DNA from: Nitrosopumilus sp.
GTDB lineage: Archaea; Thermoproteota; Nitrososphaeria; Nitrososphaerales; Nitrosopumilaceae
NCBI RefSeq assembly: GCF_025699255.1
Contig: NZ_JAILWA010000007.1
Coordinates: 1 to 64,000 of the forward strand
Length of the DNA stretch: 64,000 nucleotides
Reading direction: 5' to 3'
Both the position numbers and the translations under genes were made by a program. Below, in pieces: positions 44,885-56,104 of this stretch; the first letter of the stretch is position 1, and each line of letters begins with the position of its first letter. The notes under the pieces are model-generated. The model ran no database searches. It was given only the letters and a program-made list of their open reading frames with translations, and had not been told where the DNA came from.

Positions 44885-45298
44885 TTACATTGGTGGAAGT
44901 TCTGTTTTTTTATCATGTCCGCCAGAGCCGAATTTGCAGTAAAAACATAATTCTGATTCCATGTATTTCAGTTGCTCAACCTGAATAGCTCCGAGTTTCA
45001 ATGCAATTTTTGTCAAGATTTTGTATTTTAATGGCATTGCTGGAATTACTTCATCCATGTATACTCTGTAATGATCGGGACAGAACTTTAGGGTGACTTT
45101 TGATGGCTCTTTGCCTTTTTCATTTACTTGTTTTGTAAAGTTGATCTGCTCTCGTATGTATTCATGTTTTGGACATGGACAATTCTTGCCTCCTGGATGC
45201 TTGTAGGCGGGCGTATTCTTCCAATCAAAATCTGGAAATTCTTTTTCAAAGTCATCCATGTCATCATTTATGCAATTTAGCATATAAAACTTGATCAA
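44885..45298 (-). CDS. Orphan Cys-containing protein
   Basis: This 137-residue protein has CPCPKHEYIREQINF, KFCPDHYRVYMDE and ELCFYCKFG, six Cys and several His, suggesting a metal site. An N-terminal stretch is acidic (DDMDDFEKEFPDFDW). Start at Met1, Met6 or MDDF is possible. Family not recognised. Upstream of and on the same strand as ubiD. Confidence 0.7.
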   Translation of the reverse strand: MIKFYMLNCINDDMDDFEKEFPDFDWKNTPAYKHPGGKNCPCPKHEYIREQINFTKQVNEKGKEPSKVTLKFCPDHYRVYMDEVIPAMPLKYKILTKIALKLGAIQVEQLKYMESELCFYCKFGSGGHDKKTELPPM

Positions 45299-45355
45299 AA
45301 TTAGTTGGCGTAATCAACCCAAATGTACATAAACCCCGGATTGACCACCAAAATT

Positions 45356-46009
45356 ATGGCAGCTGCTAAAAAGCAAACTAAAGCAGATCTTGAAAACAAG
45401 ATTGCCGAATTAGAAGCAAAGCTAAACAAACTTTCTACTCAGCTAGAATCAAAACCAGCTGAAGCAAAGCCAGCAGAGACTAAACCTGCTGAGGTTAAAC
45501 CAGCTGAAACAAAACCAGCTCCAGCAAAACCTGCTGAGAGACCTGCAGCAACTACCAAACCAAAAGGTGTACTACCTAAAGGTATGGAAGAAAAACCAGC
45601 AGAGACTCCAAAACCAGCAGAAACAACTGCACAACCTCCAGCAACTGTTCAAGATGCATTAGAGAATGCATACATGACTGCTCCAATGACTGATTTCCAT
45701 CAGTACAGAGCTAAAGTCACAGGTTATTCTCCATCTCCAAACAGATACTATGTTAGAAGAACTGCTCCTGTAGGAAAAGTTCCAACTACAAATTGGAATG
45801 ATCAAAAAGTAAAGGTAACTGGATACACAGCATGTTCAAACCAATACTATGCTACAAAAGCAAGAATGGCATACCATCCAGCTGACAAAACATTTGGAAG
45901 TTTTAGTGGAATCAATATGTCTGTTGAAGGCGTTGATGCACCAGCACAACAAACTCCAACACCAGAACCACCAAAGCCTAAAAGAGGCACACTACCAAAA
46001 GGTTTCTAA
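45356..46009 (+). CDS. LPKG-motif coiled-coil/linker protein, copy A
   Basis: The 217 residues start at ATG 45356, aligned with the paralogue. Residues 8-32 form a coiled coil (ADLENKIAELEAKLNKLSTQLE). Residues 33-66 are a PAE/PAK-rich linker. GVLPKGM is at 71-77. A globular core (98-190) has two KVTGYxxxxNxYY units (120-132 and 153-165). The C-terminus is RGTLPKGF. No signal peptide, so cytosolic. Residues 32-208 are encoded by DNA identical to copy B. Function unknown. Confidence 0.8.
   Translation: MAAAKKQTKADLENKIAELEAKLNKLSTQLESKPAEAKPAETKPAEVKPAETKPAPAKPAERPAATTKPKGVLPKGMEEKPAETPKPAETTAQPPATVQDALENAYMTAPMTDFHQYRAKVTGYSPSPNRYYVRRTAPVGKVPTTNWNDQKVKVTGYTACSNQYYATKARMAYHPADKTFGSFSGINMSVEGVDAPAQQTPTPEPPKPKRGTLPKGF
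45451..45979 (+). repeat. 529-bp direct repeat, copy A
   Basis: Read base by base, this stretch is identical to 46485-47013 (offset 1034). It begins in the linker after the coiled coil and ends before the C-terminal LPKG motif. Sequences on both sides are homologous but diverged, so a conversion tract fits better than a simple recent tandem duplication. Confidence 0.93.
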
Positions 46010-46077
46010 TTCAACAACATCCTTTATTTTCTATTTTTAATAGTAATATTCTTCTTTGATCATATTCTATATCACAT

Positions 46078-46269
46078 ATGGCTCCAAAAATTCCATGTCC
46101 TAATTGCAAACAAAACGAATGGCTTGAAAATAATGAACTAAGTTATCTGCCAACTGTTATCAAAATGGATGACGGAACTTATGCTGCAGATACAAACAAC
46201 GGAATTCATGTTAGATTATGGAGATGCAATAACTGTCTATTTGTAATGCAATTTTGGGAACCTGATTAA
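46078..46269 (+). CDS. Zinc-ribbon microprotein between the LPKG paralogues
   Basis: This 63-residue protein has IPCPNCKQNEW and WRCNNCLFVMQFWEPD (two C-x2-C knuckles about 40 residues apart). It resembles small archaeal zinc ribbons. It sits between copies A and B on the same strand, so the three may act together; that is inference. Confidence 0.8.
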   Translation: MAPKIPCPNCKQNEWLENNELSYLPTVIKMDDGTYAADTNNGIHVRLWRCNNCLFVMQFWEPD

Positions 46270-46380
46270 ATAAAAACTGATGAAATTTTTACAACATATC
46301 CTTGTTTTTCACTAAATTTTTTGATTAATTTTTTCTTATGATCAAAATGTAAATAAACAATGCAATCTTTACTGAAAGGA

Positions 46381-47316
46381 ATGGCAGGAAAAACAAAAGC
46401 AAGTACGAAAAAGGATCTAGAAGCCAAAATAGCAGCGCTAGAGGAAAAATTAACTAAATTATCAACACAGCTTGAAGCCAAGCCAAAACCAGCTGAAGCA
46501 AAGCCAGCAGAGACTAAACCTGCTGAGGTTAAACCAGCTGAAACAAAACCAGCTCCAGCAAAACCTGCTGAGAGACCTGCAGCAACTACCAAACCAAAAG
46601 GTGTACTACCTAAAGGTATGGAAGAAAAACCAGCAGAGACTCCAAAACCAGCAGAAACAACTGCACAACCTCCAGCAACTGTTCAAGATGCATTAGAGAA
46701 TGCATACATGACTGCTCCAATGACTGATTTCCATCAGTACAGAGCTAAAGTCACAGGTTATTCTCCATCTCCAAACAGATACTATGTTAGAAGAACTGCT
46801 CCTGTAGGAAAAGTTCCAACTACAAATTGGAATGATCAAAAAGTAAAGGTAACTGGATACACAGCATGTTCAAACCAATACTATGCTACAAAAGCAAGAA
46901 TGGCATACCATCCAGCTGACAAAACATTTGGAAGTTTTAGTGGAATCAATATGTCTGTTGAAGGCGTTGATGCACCAGCACAACAAACTCCAACACCAGA
47001 ACCACCAAAGCCTGCAAAGGGGACTCTTCCAAAAGGTATGGGGCAAACACAGCAAGCTCCTCCTCAACAACAATCAACATATGTTGCAGATGATGGAAAA
47101 TCTAGAGAAGAAAAATTAGCAGAATATGAAGCTGATTACTTGCAAAGATTAGAACAACAAAGAATTGATGAAGAAAAAGAATTCCAACAACTCTTAGAAG
47201 CTGAAGCTAAAGCTAGATCAACAGCTAGTAGAGGTACTTTGCCAAAAGGTTTTGAACCAAAACCCGAACCAGAAGCCCCAAAAGCATCTAGAGGCACACT
47301 ACCAAAAGGTTTCTGA
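46381..47316 (+). CDS. LPKG-motif coiled-coil/linker protein, copy B (extended)
   Basis: The 311 residues (start ATG 46381 by alignment with copy A; ATG 46360 also open) share the coiled coil, PAE/PAK linker and KVTGY core. Copy B then adds about 95 residues: GTLPKGM, a Gln/Pro spacer, a charged helix (REEKLAEYEADYLQRLEQQRID), then RGTLPKGFEPK and a terminal RGTLPKGF. It thus has four LPKG[MF] motifs against two in A. The 529-bp identity with copy A ends sharply on both sides. Confidence 0.8.
   Translation: MAGKTKASTKKDLEAKIAALEEKLTKLSTQLEAKPKPAEAKPAETKPAEVKPAETKPAPAKPAERPAATTKPKGVLPKGMEEKPAETPKPAETTAQPPATVQDALENAYMTAPMTDFHQYRAKVTGYSPSPNRYYVRRTAPVGKVPTTNWNDQKVKVTGYTACSNQYYATKARMAYHPADKTFGSFSGINMSVEGVDAPAQQTPTPEPPKPAKGTLPKGMGQTQQAPPQQQSTYVADDGKSREEKLAEYEADYLQRLEQQRIDEEKEFQQLLEAEAKARSTASRGTLPKGFEPKPEPEAPKASRGTLPKGF
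46485..47013 (+). repeat. 529-bp direct repeat, copy B
   Basis: Identical partner of 45451-45979. Recombination between the two would delete about 1 kb including the zinc-ribbon gene and fuse the paralogues in frame. Confidence 0.93.
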
Positions 47317-47337: not shown

Positions 47338-47802
47338 TTATTTTAAATTTAGAAAATCTTCTAGCACTTCTTTAGAGTGTCCTGCAGGTTTTACTTTGGG
47401 ATATATTTTGAAAATTTTTCCTTTTTCATTTACAAGAAATGTACTTCTCATAACTCCCATGTATTCTCTACCCATGAATTTTTTCTTACCCCAAACACCA
47501 AAGAGATTTGAAACTTCTTTGTCTACATCTGCTAATAACGGATATTTGATTTTCATTTTATCGCAGAATTTTTTATGAGAATCTACATCGTCTGGGCTGA
47601 TGCCGATAATTTCAATTCCTTCTTTTTGGAATTTTTTATAATCTTTTGAAAATTCATCTGCCTCTGTTGTACAACCTGGAGTGAAATCTTTTGGGTAAAA
47701 GTAAATGGCATGTTTTTTGCCTTTAAAATCACTAGACTTTACTTTGTTGCCATTTGCATCATTTACTGCAAATTTTGGAACAGAATCTCCTTCAGAAATC
47801 AT
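47338..47802 (-). CDS. PrxQ/BCP peroxiredoxin
   Basis: This 154-residue thioredoxin-fold peroxidase has the peroxidatic Cys44 in DFTPGCTTEADEF and Arg in VMRSTFLV. The common PrxQ resolving Cys at +5 is Asp49; Cys80 (HKKFCDKM), 36 residues later, matches the alternative position of Xylella-type PrxQ. It detoxifies peroxides. Convergent with LPKG copy B. Confidence 0.93.
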   Translation of the reverse strand: MISEGDSVPKFAVNDANGNKVKSSDFKGKKHAIYFYPKDFTPGCTTEADEFSKDYKKFQKEGIEIIGISPDDVDSHKKFCDKMKIKYPLLADVDKEVSNLFGVWGKKKFMGREYMGVMRSTFLVNEKGKIFKIYPKVKPAGHSKEVLEDFLNLK

Positions 47803-50989: not shown

Positions 50990-53900
50990 ATGATTTTAAA
51001 CAAAACTATTTCTGCAATTGTTTTGACTACTCTCATTCTTACTGGAAGCATGTCTTTGGGAAGTTTTTCAAATGTTGAAGCCCAAACTTCTAATCTTTTT
51101 GTTTCTGCAGACAATTCCTTGTTTGACAATCGAATGTCAGGTCCTCAAGTAATAGAAGTGGTAATTCGTGATCAAAATATCAGTAATACTGGTGAAGGAA
51201 AGGGAGAACCTGACGTTACGGTTAACGGAAAAGATTTGCGTATGGTTCAGGCAACTGATGGAAATTGGTATGGATATTTCTCTGATAGAAAGCAAGCTCA
51301 AATAGCTGATAGTACAGTTGGCTTAACTGGAAAAGGACTTGATTTTGGTACATTTTGTTCTAGAAATACTTCGATTTTAGGAGTCTCCGTTTCTGACACT
51401 GAGGGAATTTCTATTCCTATCAACGGTGTGTCTGTAGGTGGAGAAAATGGCAAAAATCCTCCCAATCAAATCATTCAAGACTGCTCATTAACTTTGCCTT
51501 ATTCAAAAAAATCGATTAATGTTGTAAGGCAAGCAAAAGAAATGAATCCTGGTAATACTAAGGTCAATCTTGGACAGATAGGAGTTGCATCAAAGGATCT
51601 TTGGCCATTCATACAACTGTATGATTTTTCAAAAGGTGGTAATGTAATAGTACAATACAACAAAGGCGGAGGTGCTCAAAAAACAACTCTGACATTTGAT
51701 TCTGTAGAAAAATCCATTAAGCATGAACTTGATAGAGCATCGTATCCTAGATCTTCTGATGTTAATTTAAAAATTACAGACCTCACACTAAACATTGATC
51801 CTACATCTGTAGATTCTTGGTCTTTTGGAACCTCTCCCACAAATCCATCTACATACTATCTTCTATATCGTGAGTCAGGACAATCTCATTCTGATGGAAC
51901 TTTAGGTGCTGTAAATCTTGTACCTCACCTTGCTTCAATGATGTTCAAAGATAACGGTATTCTTAAGATCAATCCAAGTTCTCAAGGACAAACAAATGTG
52001 CTTACAATCAAAGACAATAGTCATTCAGAAACTAATGGTGATGGAGAAAAAAATATTTCATTAGTATCTTCTGGTGCAGGTACAATCGGAGCTGGAAAAC
52101 AACCCGTCACCATCACTGAAACTTCTCCAAACAGCGGTATTTTTACTACGTATGATCCAAATAATAATTCAGTACTGATTACTACTCAAGATGCTCAAAG
52201 AGGGACTTCTACATCTATAGAATATAACAAAAAACCCTTAACTCTTTTAATTGGATTTGGAAAGGCTAGTTTGTCTCTTGATGAGACCCTAAAAGGAACT
52301 GAATGGAACTCTGGCGAAGAAATGCCTGTTATTCTGATTGATCCTGATGCAAATAAAAATAATTTAGAAAAAGAAGACCTTGATCTTTTCAATCCTTCTT
52401 ACAAAGCAATTCCTGCATTGAGTACTGGAAATCCATATACTTTAGGAGAAAGTGGTACAGAAACAAATAGTAAAATCTCTGCATCCTTTTTAGATGGATT
52501 TACCTTAAATCCAACCACTTCTGAACAATTTACCCTTACAGGCGCAGTTTTGGGCACTACTTCTTCAGTAGTAGTTGAAAAATTCAGTGACAGGGCAAGA
52601 GTAGATCCTCTCAGCAATGTTGATTCTGATGCTTTGGTAATTGATCTTAAAACAAATCTCAACAAACTTTATTCTTCTATTAACAACCCCTTTGATTCTA
52701 CAACAAATTTTAGAGGTGTGAATATGTTTAACTTTGACATACGCTCTATTAACAACACTATTTCTAATGTTGACATTTATCTGCTAGTCGGAAAATCTTC
52801 TTCTCCTATTCTTGACTCTTCTGGAAATCCAACATCTGATATTACTGCAATCAAAATTGCATCTGATTCTTCTTTACAAAATCTAATCAATCTTAGTTCA
52901 ACCCAACAAATTACAAATCCTCAACTATTACATTCTAATTTATTTTCAAATTCATTTTCTGGAAATGAACAAATCGGTTTGATGTTTGTATATCCAAAAA
53001 TTCAAAATATTGGAACAGAGACAAGACCTATTGTATCTGACTTTTTCTCATATGGTTTGATTAAAGATGGACAGCTAAAAAGTGAAAGAATTGCAAATCA
53101 AATTGTTCGTATGGAGTTAGAAGAACTTGCAGCAAATACTGGAAAGTTCAGAGGAAGTCTTGAATTTATCATGTTAAACCAATTGAACGTTTTTGATTCA
53201 AAAACATTTGAGAAAATAATTCCTATAGATGATGAACCTGTCTTTCTAATGATTGATGAATTAAAAGGAAACGATGCACCAAGAATAAACTACAATGATT
53301 TGGGTTCAGATGGAGTATTTACTGCTGTTTCAGACCAACAAGATATCTTATCGCACATGGGTATTGTTGTACTTTCTGTAAAGACATTCAAACCTGGAGA
53401 TACAGTTGGTGTTACTTTGTCTGACAAAGATCTTAACACCAATTCAGATTTAGTTGAAATTTACACTGTAGTTGATCCTTCAAAATATCCTAATGATCCA
53501 GCTGTAGATACTGTAGGTCTTCCAAATCTAGGACTTACTAGTAGTAATCAACCGTATGGACGACTATTGGAAGTTACATTTGATGATGAAACTTGGATAA
53601 AATCATCTGTTTCTAAGAATGGAAAGTCCTGCTCATCAATATCTGGTACTGATGGATTGGCCTCGACTGGTTTTACTTTAGTTGAAACTGGAAGCAAAAC
53701 TGGGGAGTTTAAAGGTGATTTTAAAATCCCATCCCAATATTGTTCAAGAAACAGTGGCGGTACAATCAAAACTACTACTGGTGTAGACATTGGAGCAAGA
53801 TACTATGACTTTAGAGGACAATCAAGTCAGGCTGCAATTACTAGTACTAGTGCTGCTGTAGGTGCAACAAGTGGAAGTGTTCAACTTGACCGCACAAGTT

Positions 53901-56104
53901 ATCCTGTTCCTGTAGGTTCTGTTTCTGACTTTTTTACTTCTGGAAAATCTACTGCATCTAGACCCAACAATTTATCGATTTTTCCATATCATTTGACTGC
54001 AATCACCAAAAATGGAGATGTAAATGCAATAGACTCTGGTGAAGAAATAGGACCTAAAGATACTGTAATTTATGTTCGTATCAGTGATAATGATTTTAAC
54101 CTGTCTGTCAATGGAGAAGATACTATTTCCCAAAACATATCTGGAACAACTAACGGTCCAGTTAAAGTATTTGTTACAAGAGGAAGCTCAACATTACTTT
54201 TAGCTACAGCTGGTGGTGAAGAGGCAAAAGCAGGAGTGATAACAACGGGAAAGAATACAAAAAGTGGAATTACTAGGGAGCTTGGTCCTATTGCAGAAAC
54301 TTCTCCTAGTTCTGGGGTTTTCCAATTTAGTTTGCCCATAAGATATGTTGATGGTCCTTCTTCAACTAAATGTCCGATAACTCCTGATTCAGGATTTACA
54401 AAATTAGACAAAACAAAATCTGGTGTACTGTCAAGATTTGATGTATCTCCGTCCACAGGAAATTATTGTATCTTACAAGGTGATATTATCACTGTGGAAT
54501 ATTCTGATCAAACAGATGCATCTGGTTCTCCACGAGCTGTAACTGGCTCTGCTGCATTTGATCTTCGAATTGGTTCATTACAATCTGATACTCAATCTTA
54601 CATTATAGGACGTGATGCATTAATTACTTTGATTGATCCTGATCTAAACTTTGATTCTAAAAAAGCAGAGACGCATTCACTTGATTTGCTAGAATGGAAC
54701 TCAAATAATATCAAGACCACTATGGGTAAGATGGGCGGTTCTATTACAAATAATGGACAAATATTCAACTCACAACCATTTGGATTACGTGAAACTGGTG
54801 ATTCTACTGGAATTTTCCAAACCACTATCGAAATTCCATCTGAAATTAATGGCAAATCTCTTGACAGGGGAGATCAAATCAAAATAACCTATACTGATTG
54901 GGGAACATCCGGTTCTGATTTTGTGGGTAAAAATGATCAAAAAGCAGAATTGAAATTCTTTACATCTAATTTCCAATCCTTGATTTCTTTAGATAAGAAA
55001 GTGTATACATGGACAGACAAAGTCTATGTTACAATTACTGCCCCTGATCATAATTTTGATAAAAATAAGATTGATGAAATAGGTTCAAAATCTACAAATG
55101 AAATAAAAATTTCTACTAGAGCCAACAAACTCTCACAATACAAACTTGCAGAAACTGGTGGTGATACAGGAATTTTTACTGGAGAAGTAATTCTAACCGG
55201 ATTCAAACATGATGCTGATGGAAATTCTAGAACTGGGAATATTGATGGAATCGATACCAATCCTAGAACTCAACCAAAGAGTGGCGGTGGTCCTACAAAC
55301 GGTTTCTTGGAAACTAAAAATGATGATGGTCTAACTATATCCTTTCAATTTACTGATAAAGAAACCTCTACTGCATCTGCATTGATTAGATGGAATATTG
55401 GAGATATTGAATGGGTTCAAGGTGCATCATCAGCTAATGGGAATGGCATTATTCGTGTAATTGATCCTGACATGAACCTTAATCCTGAAACTGTAAACAC
55501 ATTCGTCATAGATGCTTGGTCTGATTCAGATTTGGGTGGTATTGACTTGACTGTAACTGAAACAGGACCTGCAACTGGAATATTTGAGGGACAAATTACA
55601 TTTTCTTCAAAAGATCAATCATCTGGTCATAAATTACGAGTAAGTGAAGGAGACTATGTAACTGCAAAATATGAAGACAATACTTTGCCTAAACCTTATT
55701 CCAGAAATGATGAATTAAAAATTACCTCTAGTACTACTGTGGGACCAATTATTCCACCCATGGAACGTGCACCTGTGTATAATCCTCGAATTGTTGATTC
55801 CTTTGGAAACGATGTTAGTTTGATAAAGGTGGATAACCAAATCCAAATATCTGCAAGTATTCTGAATAATAATGTGGGAACTCAACCCTTTACTTATCTG
55901 GTTCAAATTCAGGATTCTTCAGATTCTGTAAATTCATTATCTTGGATTTCTGGTACTATGTCAAAAGGACAATTACTGTCTCCTTCTGTTTCTTGGATTC
56001 CTGATACTCCTGGTAGTTATACTGCAACAATTTTTGTATGGTCTAGTTTAGATAATCCATTACCTCTCAGTCCTACTGTTAATTTTGAGATTATTGTTTC
56101 CTGA
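50990..56104 (+). CDS. slaA: S-layer protein (giant secreted surface protein)
   Basis: The 1704 residues begin with a Sec signal (MILNKTISAIVLTTLILTGS, cleavage probably after VEA|QT). Size and beta-rich multi-domain build match the Nitrosopumilus S-layer protein. Six acidic motifs of the form (I/S)D-x-D-x-N recur (about residues 450, 811, 1031, 1215, 1351, 1491), and seven TG-x-F-type motifs (ETGxxTGIFxG) at about 381, 717, 904, 1107, 1271, 1393 and 1527, marking repeated Ig-like units with probable calcium sites. No C-terminal anchor is visible. It would coat the cell; several Cys pairs may form disulfides. Confidence 0.9.
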   Translation: MILNKTISAIVLTTLILTGSMSLGSFSNVEAQTSNLFVSADNSLFDNRMSGPQVIEVVIRDQNISNTGEGKGEPDVTVNGKDLRMVQATDGNWYGYFSDRKQAQIADSTVGLTGKGLDFGTFCSRNTSILGVSVSDTEGISIPINGVSVGGENGKNPPNQIIQDCSLTLPYSKKSINVVRQAKEMNPGNTKVNLGQIGVASKDLWPFIQLYDFSKGGNVIVQYNKGGGAQKTTLTFDSVEKSIKHELDRASYPRSSDVNLKITDLTLNIDPTSVDSWSFGTSPTNPSTYYLLYRESGQSHSDGTLGAVNLVPHLASMMFKDNGILKINPSSQGQTNVLTIKDNSHSETNGDGEKNISLVSSGAGTIGAGKQPVTITETSPNSGIFTTYDPNNNSVLITTQDAQRGTSTSIEYNKKPLTLLIGFGKASLSLDETLKGTEWNSGEEMPVILIDPDANKNNLEKEDLDLFNPSYKAIPALSTGNPYTLGESGTETNSKISASFLDGFTLNPTTSEQFTLTGAVLGTTSSVVVEKFSDRARVDPLSNVDSDALVIDLKTNLNKLYSSINNPFDSTTNFRGVNMFNFDIRSINNTISNVDIYLLVGKSSSPILDSSGNPTSDITAIKIASDSSLQNLINLSSTQQITNPQLLHSNLFSNSFSGNEQIGLMFVYPKIQNIGTETRPIVSDFFSYGLIKDGQLKSERIANQIVRMELEELAANTGKFRGSLEFIMLNQLNVFDSKTFEKIIPIDDEPVFLMIDELKGNDAPRINYNDLGSDGVFTAVSDQQDILSHMGIVVLSVKTFKPGDTVGVTLSDKDLNTNSDLVEIYTVVDPSKYPNDPAVDTVGLPNLGLTSSNQPYGRLLEVTFDDETWIKSSVSKNGKSCSSISGTDGLASTGFTLVETGSKTGEFKGDFKIPSQYCSRNSGGTIKTTTGVDIGARYYDFRGQSSQAAITSTSAAVGATSGSVQLDRTSYPVPVGSVSDFFTSGKSTASRPNNLSIFPYHLTAITKNGDVNAIDSGEEIGPKDTVIYVRISDNDFNLSVNGEDTISQNISGTTNGPVKVFVTRGSSTLLLATAGGEEAKAGVITTGKNTKSGITRELGPIAETSPSSGVFQFSLPIRYVDGPSSTKCPITPDSGFTKLDKTKSGVLSRFDVSPSTGNYCILQGDIITVEYSDQTDASGSPRAVTGSAAFDLRIGSLQSDTQSYIIGRDALITLIDPDLNFDSKKAETHSLDLLEWNSNNIKTTMGKMGGSITNNGQIFNSQPFGLRETGDSTGIFQTTIEIPSEINGKSLDRGDQIKITYTDWGTSGSDFVGKNDQKAELKFFTSNFQSLISLDKKVYTWTDKVYVTITAPDHNFDKNKIDEIGSKSTNEIKISTRANKLSQYKLAETGGDTGIFTGEVILTGFKHDADGNSRTGNIDGIDTNPRTQPKSGGGPTNGFLETKNDDGLTISFQFTDKETSTASALIRWNIGDIEWVQGASSANGNGIIRVIDPDMNLNPETVNTFVIDAWSDSDLGGIDLTVTETGPATGIFEGQITFSSKDQSSGHKLRVSEGDYVTAKYEDNTLPKPYSRNDELKITSSTTVGPIIPPMERAPVYNPRIVDSFGNDVSLIKVDNQIQISASILNNNVGTQPFTYLVQIQDSSDSVNSLSWISGTMSKGQLLSPSVSWIPDTPGSYTATIFVWSSLDNPLPLSPTVNFEIIVS

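Follow-up and report, generated by a model that had tools for sequence, protein, structure and literature searches.

Two neighbouring genes of a Nitrosopumilus species, here called A and B, are identical base for base over a long central stretch, while the sequences on either side of that stretch are homologous and diverged. The locus raises the question of how two paralogues can be so alike in the middle and so different at their ends. The original prediction was that gene conversion had homogenised the cores of the two genes, and that selection acts to keep the cores alike. We analysed the locus in the window, that is, the whole stretch of 64,000 nucleotides under study, and in the genomes of its relatives. 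Concerted evolution, mosaic tract ends, the age of the duplication and hybrid genes, as described below, were all established by sequence comparison.

Two paralogues and their identical tract

The ORFs of the window at this locus lie in the order left flank ORF, gene A, zinc-ribbon ORF, gene B and peroxiredoxin (Table 1). Gene A is made up of a coil, a Pro/Ala/Lys linker, the core and a GTLPKGF end, and gene B of a coil, a linker, the core and an extra helical tail with LPKGF repeats. Gene A ends no more than 30 nt past the identical tract; gene B runs on with its own tail, which adds ~95 aa that are absent in gene A. The zinc-ribbon ORF had not been mentioned earlier. It gave weak matches only in a Pfam search, and the locus lacks it in some other genera (g10 and g15). 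In one relative (locus L042 of genome G093), ~1.6 kb of extra DNA was seen between A and the zinc-ribbon ORF, with the identity of the cores intact (522 nt exact). Elsewhere in the window, positions 50990-56104 contain a large ORF of 1704 aa. Its N-terminus resembles a signal sequence, repeated stretches lie close by, and it perhaps encodes a surface protein.

Table 1. Features of the A/B locus, in positions of the window.
Feature	Position	Strand	Basis or remark
Left flank, syntenic 137-aa ORF, unknown family	44885..45298	-	Synteny
A-type upstream element AAATGTACATAAAC	45321..45334	+	Ends ~21 nt before ATG of A
Gene A, 217 aa	45356..46009	+	ORF; start MAAAKKQTK set by conservation
Copy 1 of 530-nt identical tract (linker and core, gene A)	45450..45979	+	Exact match
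Conserved core of A, ~87 aa, two VTGY half-repeats	45680..45940	+	Profile match, alignment
Zinc-ribbon-like ORF, 63 aa, four cysteines in two CxxC pairs	46078..46269	+	Between A and B
B-type upstream element AAATGTAAATAAAC	46345..46358	+	Ends ~22 nt before ATG of B
Gene B, 311 aa	46381..47316	+	ORF; start MAGKTKAS set by conservation
Copy 2 of 530-nt identical tract (gene B)	46484..47013	+	Exact match
Conserved core of B	46714..46974	+	Profile match, alignment
B-specific tail, not homogenised with A	47014..47316	+	ORF reading, comparison across genomes
Right flank, syntenic peroxiredoxin (thioredoxin-dependent thiol peroxidase)	47338..47802	-	NCBIfam NF006960 above cut-off; synteny

The identity of 529 bp that had been claimed for 45451-45979 and 46485-47013 was borne out, and the exact tract proved to be one base longer (530 nt, 45450-45979 = 46484-47013). 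No third match to the tract was found in the 1.65 Mb assembly, which contains it in two places only. Alignment of A with B gave 50 mismatches in 654 columns, with 40 of them falling within the first 94 columns and 10 beyond the tract; under a random spread of these 50 mismatches, the probability of a clean run of 530 columns would be less than ~1e-38. The coils of A and B upstream of the tract differ at 37 of 90 nt (41%), and the alignment confirmed homology together with divergence on both sides of the tract, in the coil before it and in the C-terminal part that follows. GC-biased conversion was considered and rejected, as GC3 in the tract is 0.16 and does not rise relative to its neighbours.

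Each gene is preceded by an upstream element of its own type. The sequence AAATGTAMATAAAC has two occurrences only in the 1.65 Mb genome, at 45321-45334 and 46345-46358. The A-type motif, CCCAAATGTA[AC]ATAAACC, and the B-type motif, A[TA]CAAAATGTAAATAAACA, start ~34-36 nt before the start codon and are conserved into other genera, and both the position of the element and its copy-specific flanks are kept in most relatives. We infer that these elements are probably unusual core promoters. Taken together, the copy-specific promoters, the B tail and synteny show an old duplication and not repeated fresh ones, and the comparison places this duplication before several genera of the family.

Cores and coils across related genomes

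The two-gene arrangement recurs in family-level relatives (Nitrosopumilaceae-type archaea), within the genus as well as in several genera outside it. Comparisons within the genus were made on the 22 genomes that have both cores. The longest exact A-B tract in these genomes ranged from 110 to 610 nt; the cores grouped by genome, and the N-terminal coils and promoters grouped mostly by copy. A and B labels were fully intermixed in the core tree (20 changes; identical A/B rows formed 12 sets), and core trees would mislead on orthology. The coil tree separated A from B with 4 changes, and none of 500 shuffles gave a number as low. Mean pS of the core was 0.03 within a genome, with a value of zero in 12 of the 22, and 0.41 between genomes; the median pS of the coil within a genome was ~0.67.

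Differences between species were also shared by the two copies. Among the 16 genomes with cores of equal length, 97% of between-species core differences were mirrored in the other copy. All 8 of the 8 core differences were mirrored in the closest pair (G094/G056), so conversion continued after the split of this pair. The differences left between A and B were clustered, mostly toward the edges of the tract, and the limits of the tract varied between lineages; this is, as read from the alignments, the kind of mosaic that conversion tracts should leave. Within one clade, five genomes have cores whose 3' end has stayed copy-specific. The coils too were more or less alike within four genomes (G033, G071, G085 and G092), showing that conversion sometimes extends into the coil.

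In most pairs from other genera, the longest exact A-B match was 378-579 nt. It was 70-92 nt in the outer lineages G162, G163 and G126, where homogenisation is weak. Homogenisation is thus not universal, and is weak in some outer lineages. The check proposed with the original prediction, namely whether the two copies in a genome are closer to each other than to their orthologues, gave a positive answer for the A and B cores of the 22 genomes, and other genera behaved likewise. With cores grouping by genome and coils mostly by copy, the predicted gene conversion and concerted evolution of the core are strongly supported. The locus shows the features that define long-lasting concerted evolution of the mtrA/tuf type: paralogues are more alike than orthologues, synonymous sites included, the duplication predates the speciations as judged from the unconverted, copy-specific parts, and the mosaic boundaries vary with lineage.

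Hybrid genes, encoded proteins and alternative explanations

Several genomes (for example G091, G018, G014, G045 and G050) carry a single hybrid gene, in which promoter and coil are of A type, the tail is of B type and one core lies between them. The exact promoter motif is absent from the hybrid genome G005. In those hybrids that were tested, A sequence gives way to B sequence within the repeated stretch or adjoining it. Searches of whole genomes did not find the zinc-ribbon gene in the hybrid-gene genomes of the genus; its absence from whole genomes suggests that collapse by an assembler alone is no explanation for the hybrids, with the caution that small contigs may drop from MAGs. The single-core state was scattered over the tree built from both flank genes, with 13 changes when other kinds of loss are counted too, and on this tree the hybrid genome G018 is sister to G003, a two-copy genome in a single contig. 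Other losses were also seen. The A coil is fused directly to the B tail in the single-contig genome G010 (locus L038), and the core was found nowhere in that genome. B lacks the core and A keeps it in G036 (locus L040), with the joint at KPKGTLPKGF repeats; A is without the core in G037, in which the core is kept in one copy only. The hybrid genes represent the other outcome of recombination between A and B.

The proteins themselves gave few clues to function. Neither A nor B matched a Pfam or NCBIfam family above the cut-off, neither had a strong PHROG match, and a search of a phage collection gave no match. Matches to an HK97 capsid (E 0.005) and to other PHROG and NCBIfam entries were weak, lay mostly in the coil and linker, and were set aside. 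A search of PDB sequences with the core profile returned short stretches only, none convincing; the best, to a CFA/I fimbrial fusion (E 8e-6 across ~27 residues, none of the stretches passing individually), was judged to be due to chance. Fold prediction gave a pLDDT of 47 for the core (70 aligned relatives) and 52 for full-length B (29 relatives), where helices were confident at residues 10-32 and 242-281 only, and no confident fold was obtained for either. Ala, Pro and Lys are abundant in both proteins, which have a short coiled coil at the N-terminus, LPKG[FM] repeats and a core that is rich in Tyr and has two VTGY half-repeats. Our best guess, from composition and low-confidence models, is that they may be scaffold or linker proteins, mostly disordered and linked through coiled coils, in which the core carries a conserved contact motif.

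The identity of the cores could be an artefact of assembly, in which a repeat was collapsed or smoothed by consensus, since the window's genome is in 20 contigs and repeats of 530 nt are often mishandled by short-read assemblers. However, two homogenised copies are present in ten single-contig genomes (including G001, G004, G007, G008, G027, G092, G093 and G094), and the shared core sequence differs from species to species. Moreover, in ~20 drafts a contig terminates within the repeat, as a true repeat would give, and these are breaks and not invented copies. An artefact is therefore scarcely credible, though consensus could hide a few real core SNPs in the window's own assembly; as a practical warning, MAGs assembled from short reads are broken at the locus in this group. 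Recent tandem duplications that arose separately in each lineage, with ends that then diverged fast, would agree with A and B being neighbours in direct orientation. They are highly improbable given that the A- and B-type promoters, the coils and the B tail are shared, in unchanged order, between genomes and between genera, that the zinc-ribbon gene is usually shared between A and B in this genus, and that silent sites of the coils are near saturation within one genome in which the core is identical. Repeats around a core that differs between species, together with frequent recombination, might also suggest a programmed cassette in which cores are exchanged so that a surface protein varies. 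We give this next to no weight, as the genome has no silent archive of cores but two matching places only, the locus has no inverted repeats, the core is under purifying selection and not diversified, and a signal peptide is not evident in the sequence. Recurrent gene conversion, giving rise to the concerted evolution of the A and B cores, is what the compared sequences argue for, those of the single-contig genomes among them.

Conversion could in turn be the tool of selection for identical cores, acting through the dosage of A and B or their assembly with each other to maintain homogeneity, as proposed for the Mtr complex. Purifying selection on the core (median dN/dS ~0.23) and the persistence of conversion across genera are in keeping with this, and for mtrA a role of this kind of selection has been put forward (PMC4632066). 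However, homogenisation is as complete at silent sites as at the amino-acid level, and conversion alone is thus enough to explain the identity. Single-core loci have also arisen several times, G036 and G037 have the core in one copy only and the single-contig G010 has none, losses that argue against a need for two matched cores. The part of the original prediction that invoked selection to keep the cores alike was thus left unsupported, and we consider such selection unlikely. More doubtful still is a scheme in which A and B are co-expressed subunits of a disordered scaffold that meet via the core, selection having favoured conversion to match their contact surfaces.

Proposed mechanism and comparison with known systems

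We assign a probability of about 0.93 to an old duplication in which each copy has kept its promoter, coil and 3' end, the linker and core being overwritten by conversion, and crossover or deletion giving the hybrid. A and B come from a single duplication that took place before several genera of the family arose, and promoter, N-terminal coil and 3' end have stayed each copy's own. The linker-core region would be overwritten repeatedly through intragenomic homologous recombination between direct repeats ~1 kb apart, presumably by the host's RadA-type machinery. Gene conversion would be the non-crossover outcome of this recombination; in the crossover or deletion outcome, the intervening segment would be lost, leaving the hybrid with the A promoter and coil, a core and the B tail. 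The ends of the tract are probably set by failing homology and by selection for distinct coils, promoters and tails.

In an archaeal group that is abundant worldwide, and for which the papers retrieved describe no ectopic gene conversion, the locus offers a clean natural test system for this process. Both outcomes, conversion and deletion, are seen at one locus over dozens of species, making the rate and the tract limits measurable; a crude equilibrium estimate of the rate of conversion relative to that of mutation is roughly 65-200 fold. In the non-subscription literature, no title or abstract on concerted evolution or gene conversion in Nitrosopumilus or other Thaumarchaeota dealt with this locus, and putative N. 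maritimus locus tags likewise led to no papers.

Efficient archaeal gene conversion by homologous recombination is described for Haloferax volcanii, where it is intermolecular and takes place between chromosome copies of a polyploid (PMC11276520), whereas A and B are two loci ~1 kb apart. A survey lists 26 prokaryotic genes with long-lasting recurrent concerted evolution, tuf among them (PMC6053082). As in that set, A and B paralogues are closer within species than orthologues are, at silent and non-silent sites and in many species; the archaeal rows in the part of the survey considered here are all Euryarchaeota, whereas A and B come from a different archaeal group and are proteins of unknown function (PMC6053082). 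The closest precedent is mtrA-1/mtrA-2 of methanogens, neighbouring paralogues of Methanococcales and Methanomicrobiales with domain-limited, long-lasting gene conversion (PMC4632066). Both cases involve neighbouring archaeal paralogues from an old duplication, with one domain homogenised and another copy-specific. Unlike mtrA-1/mtrA-2, A and B belong to a different, uncharacterised family in ammonia-oxidising archaea, conversion spares their promoters and both their 5' and their 3' ends, and collapse to a hybrid gene can be seen to have recurred. The A/B locus is thus a clear new case of a known phenomenon, long-lasting gene conversion.
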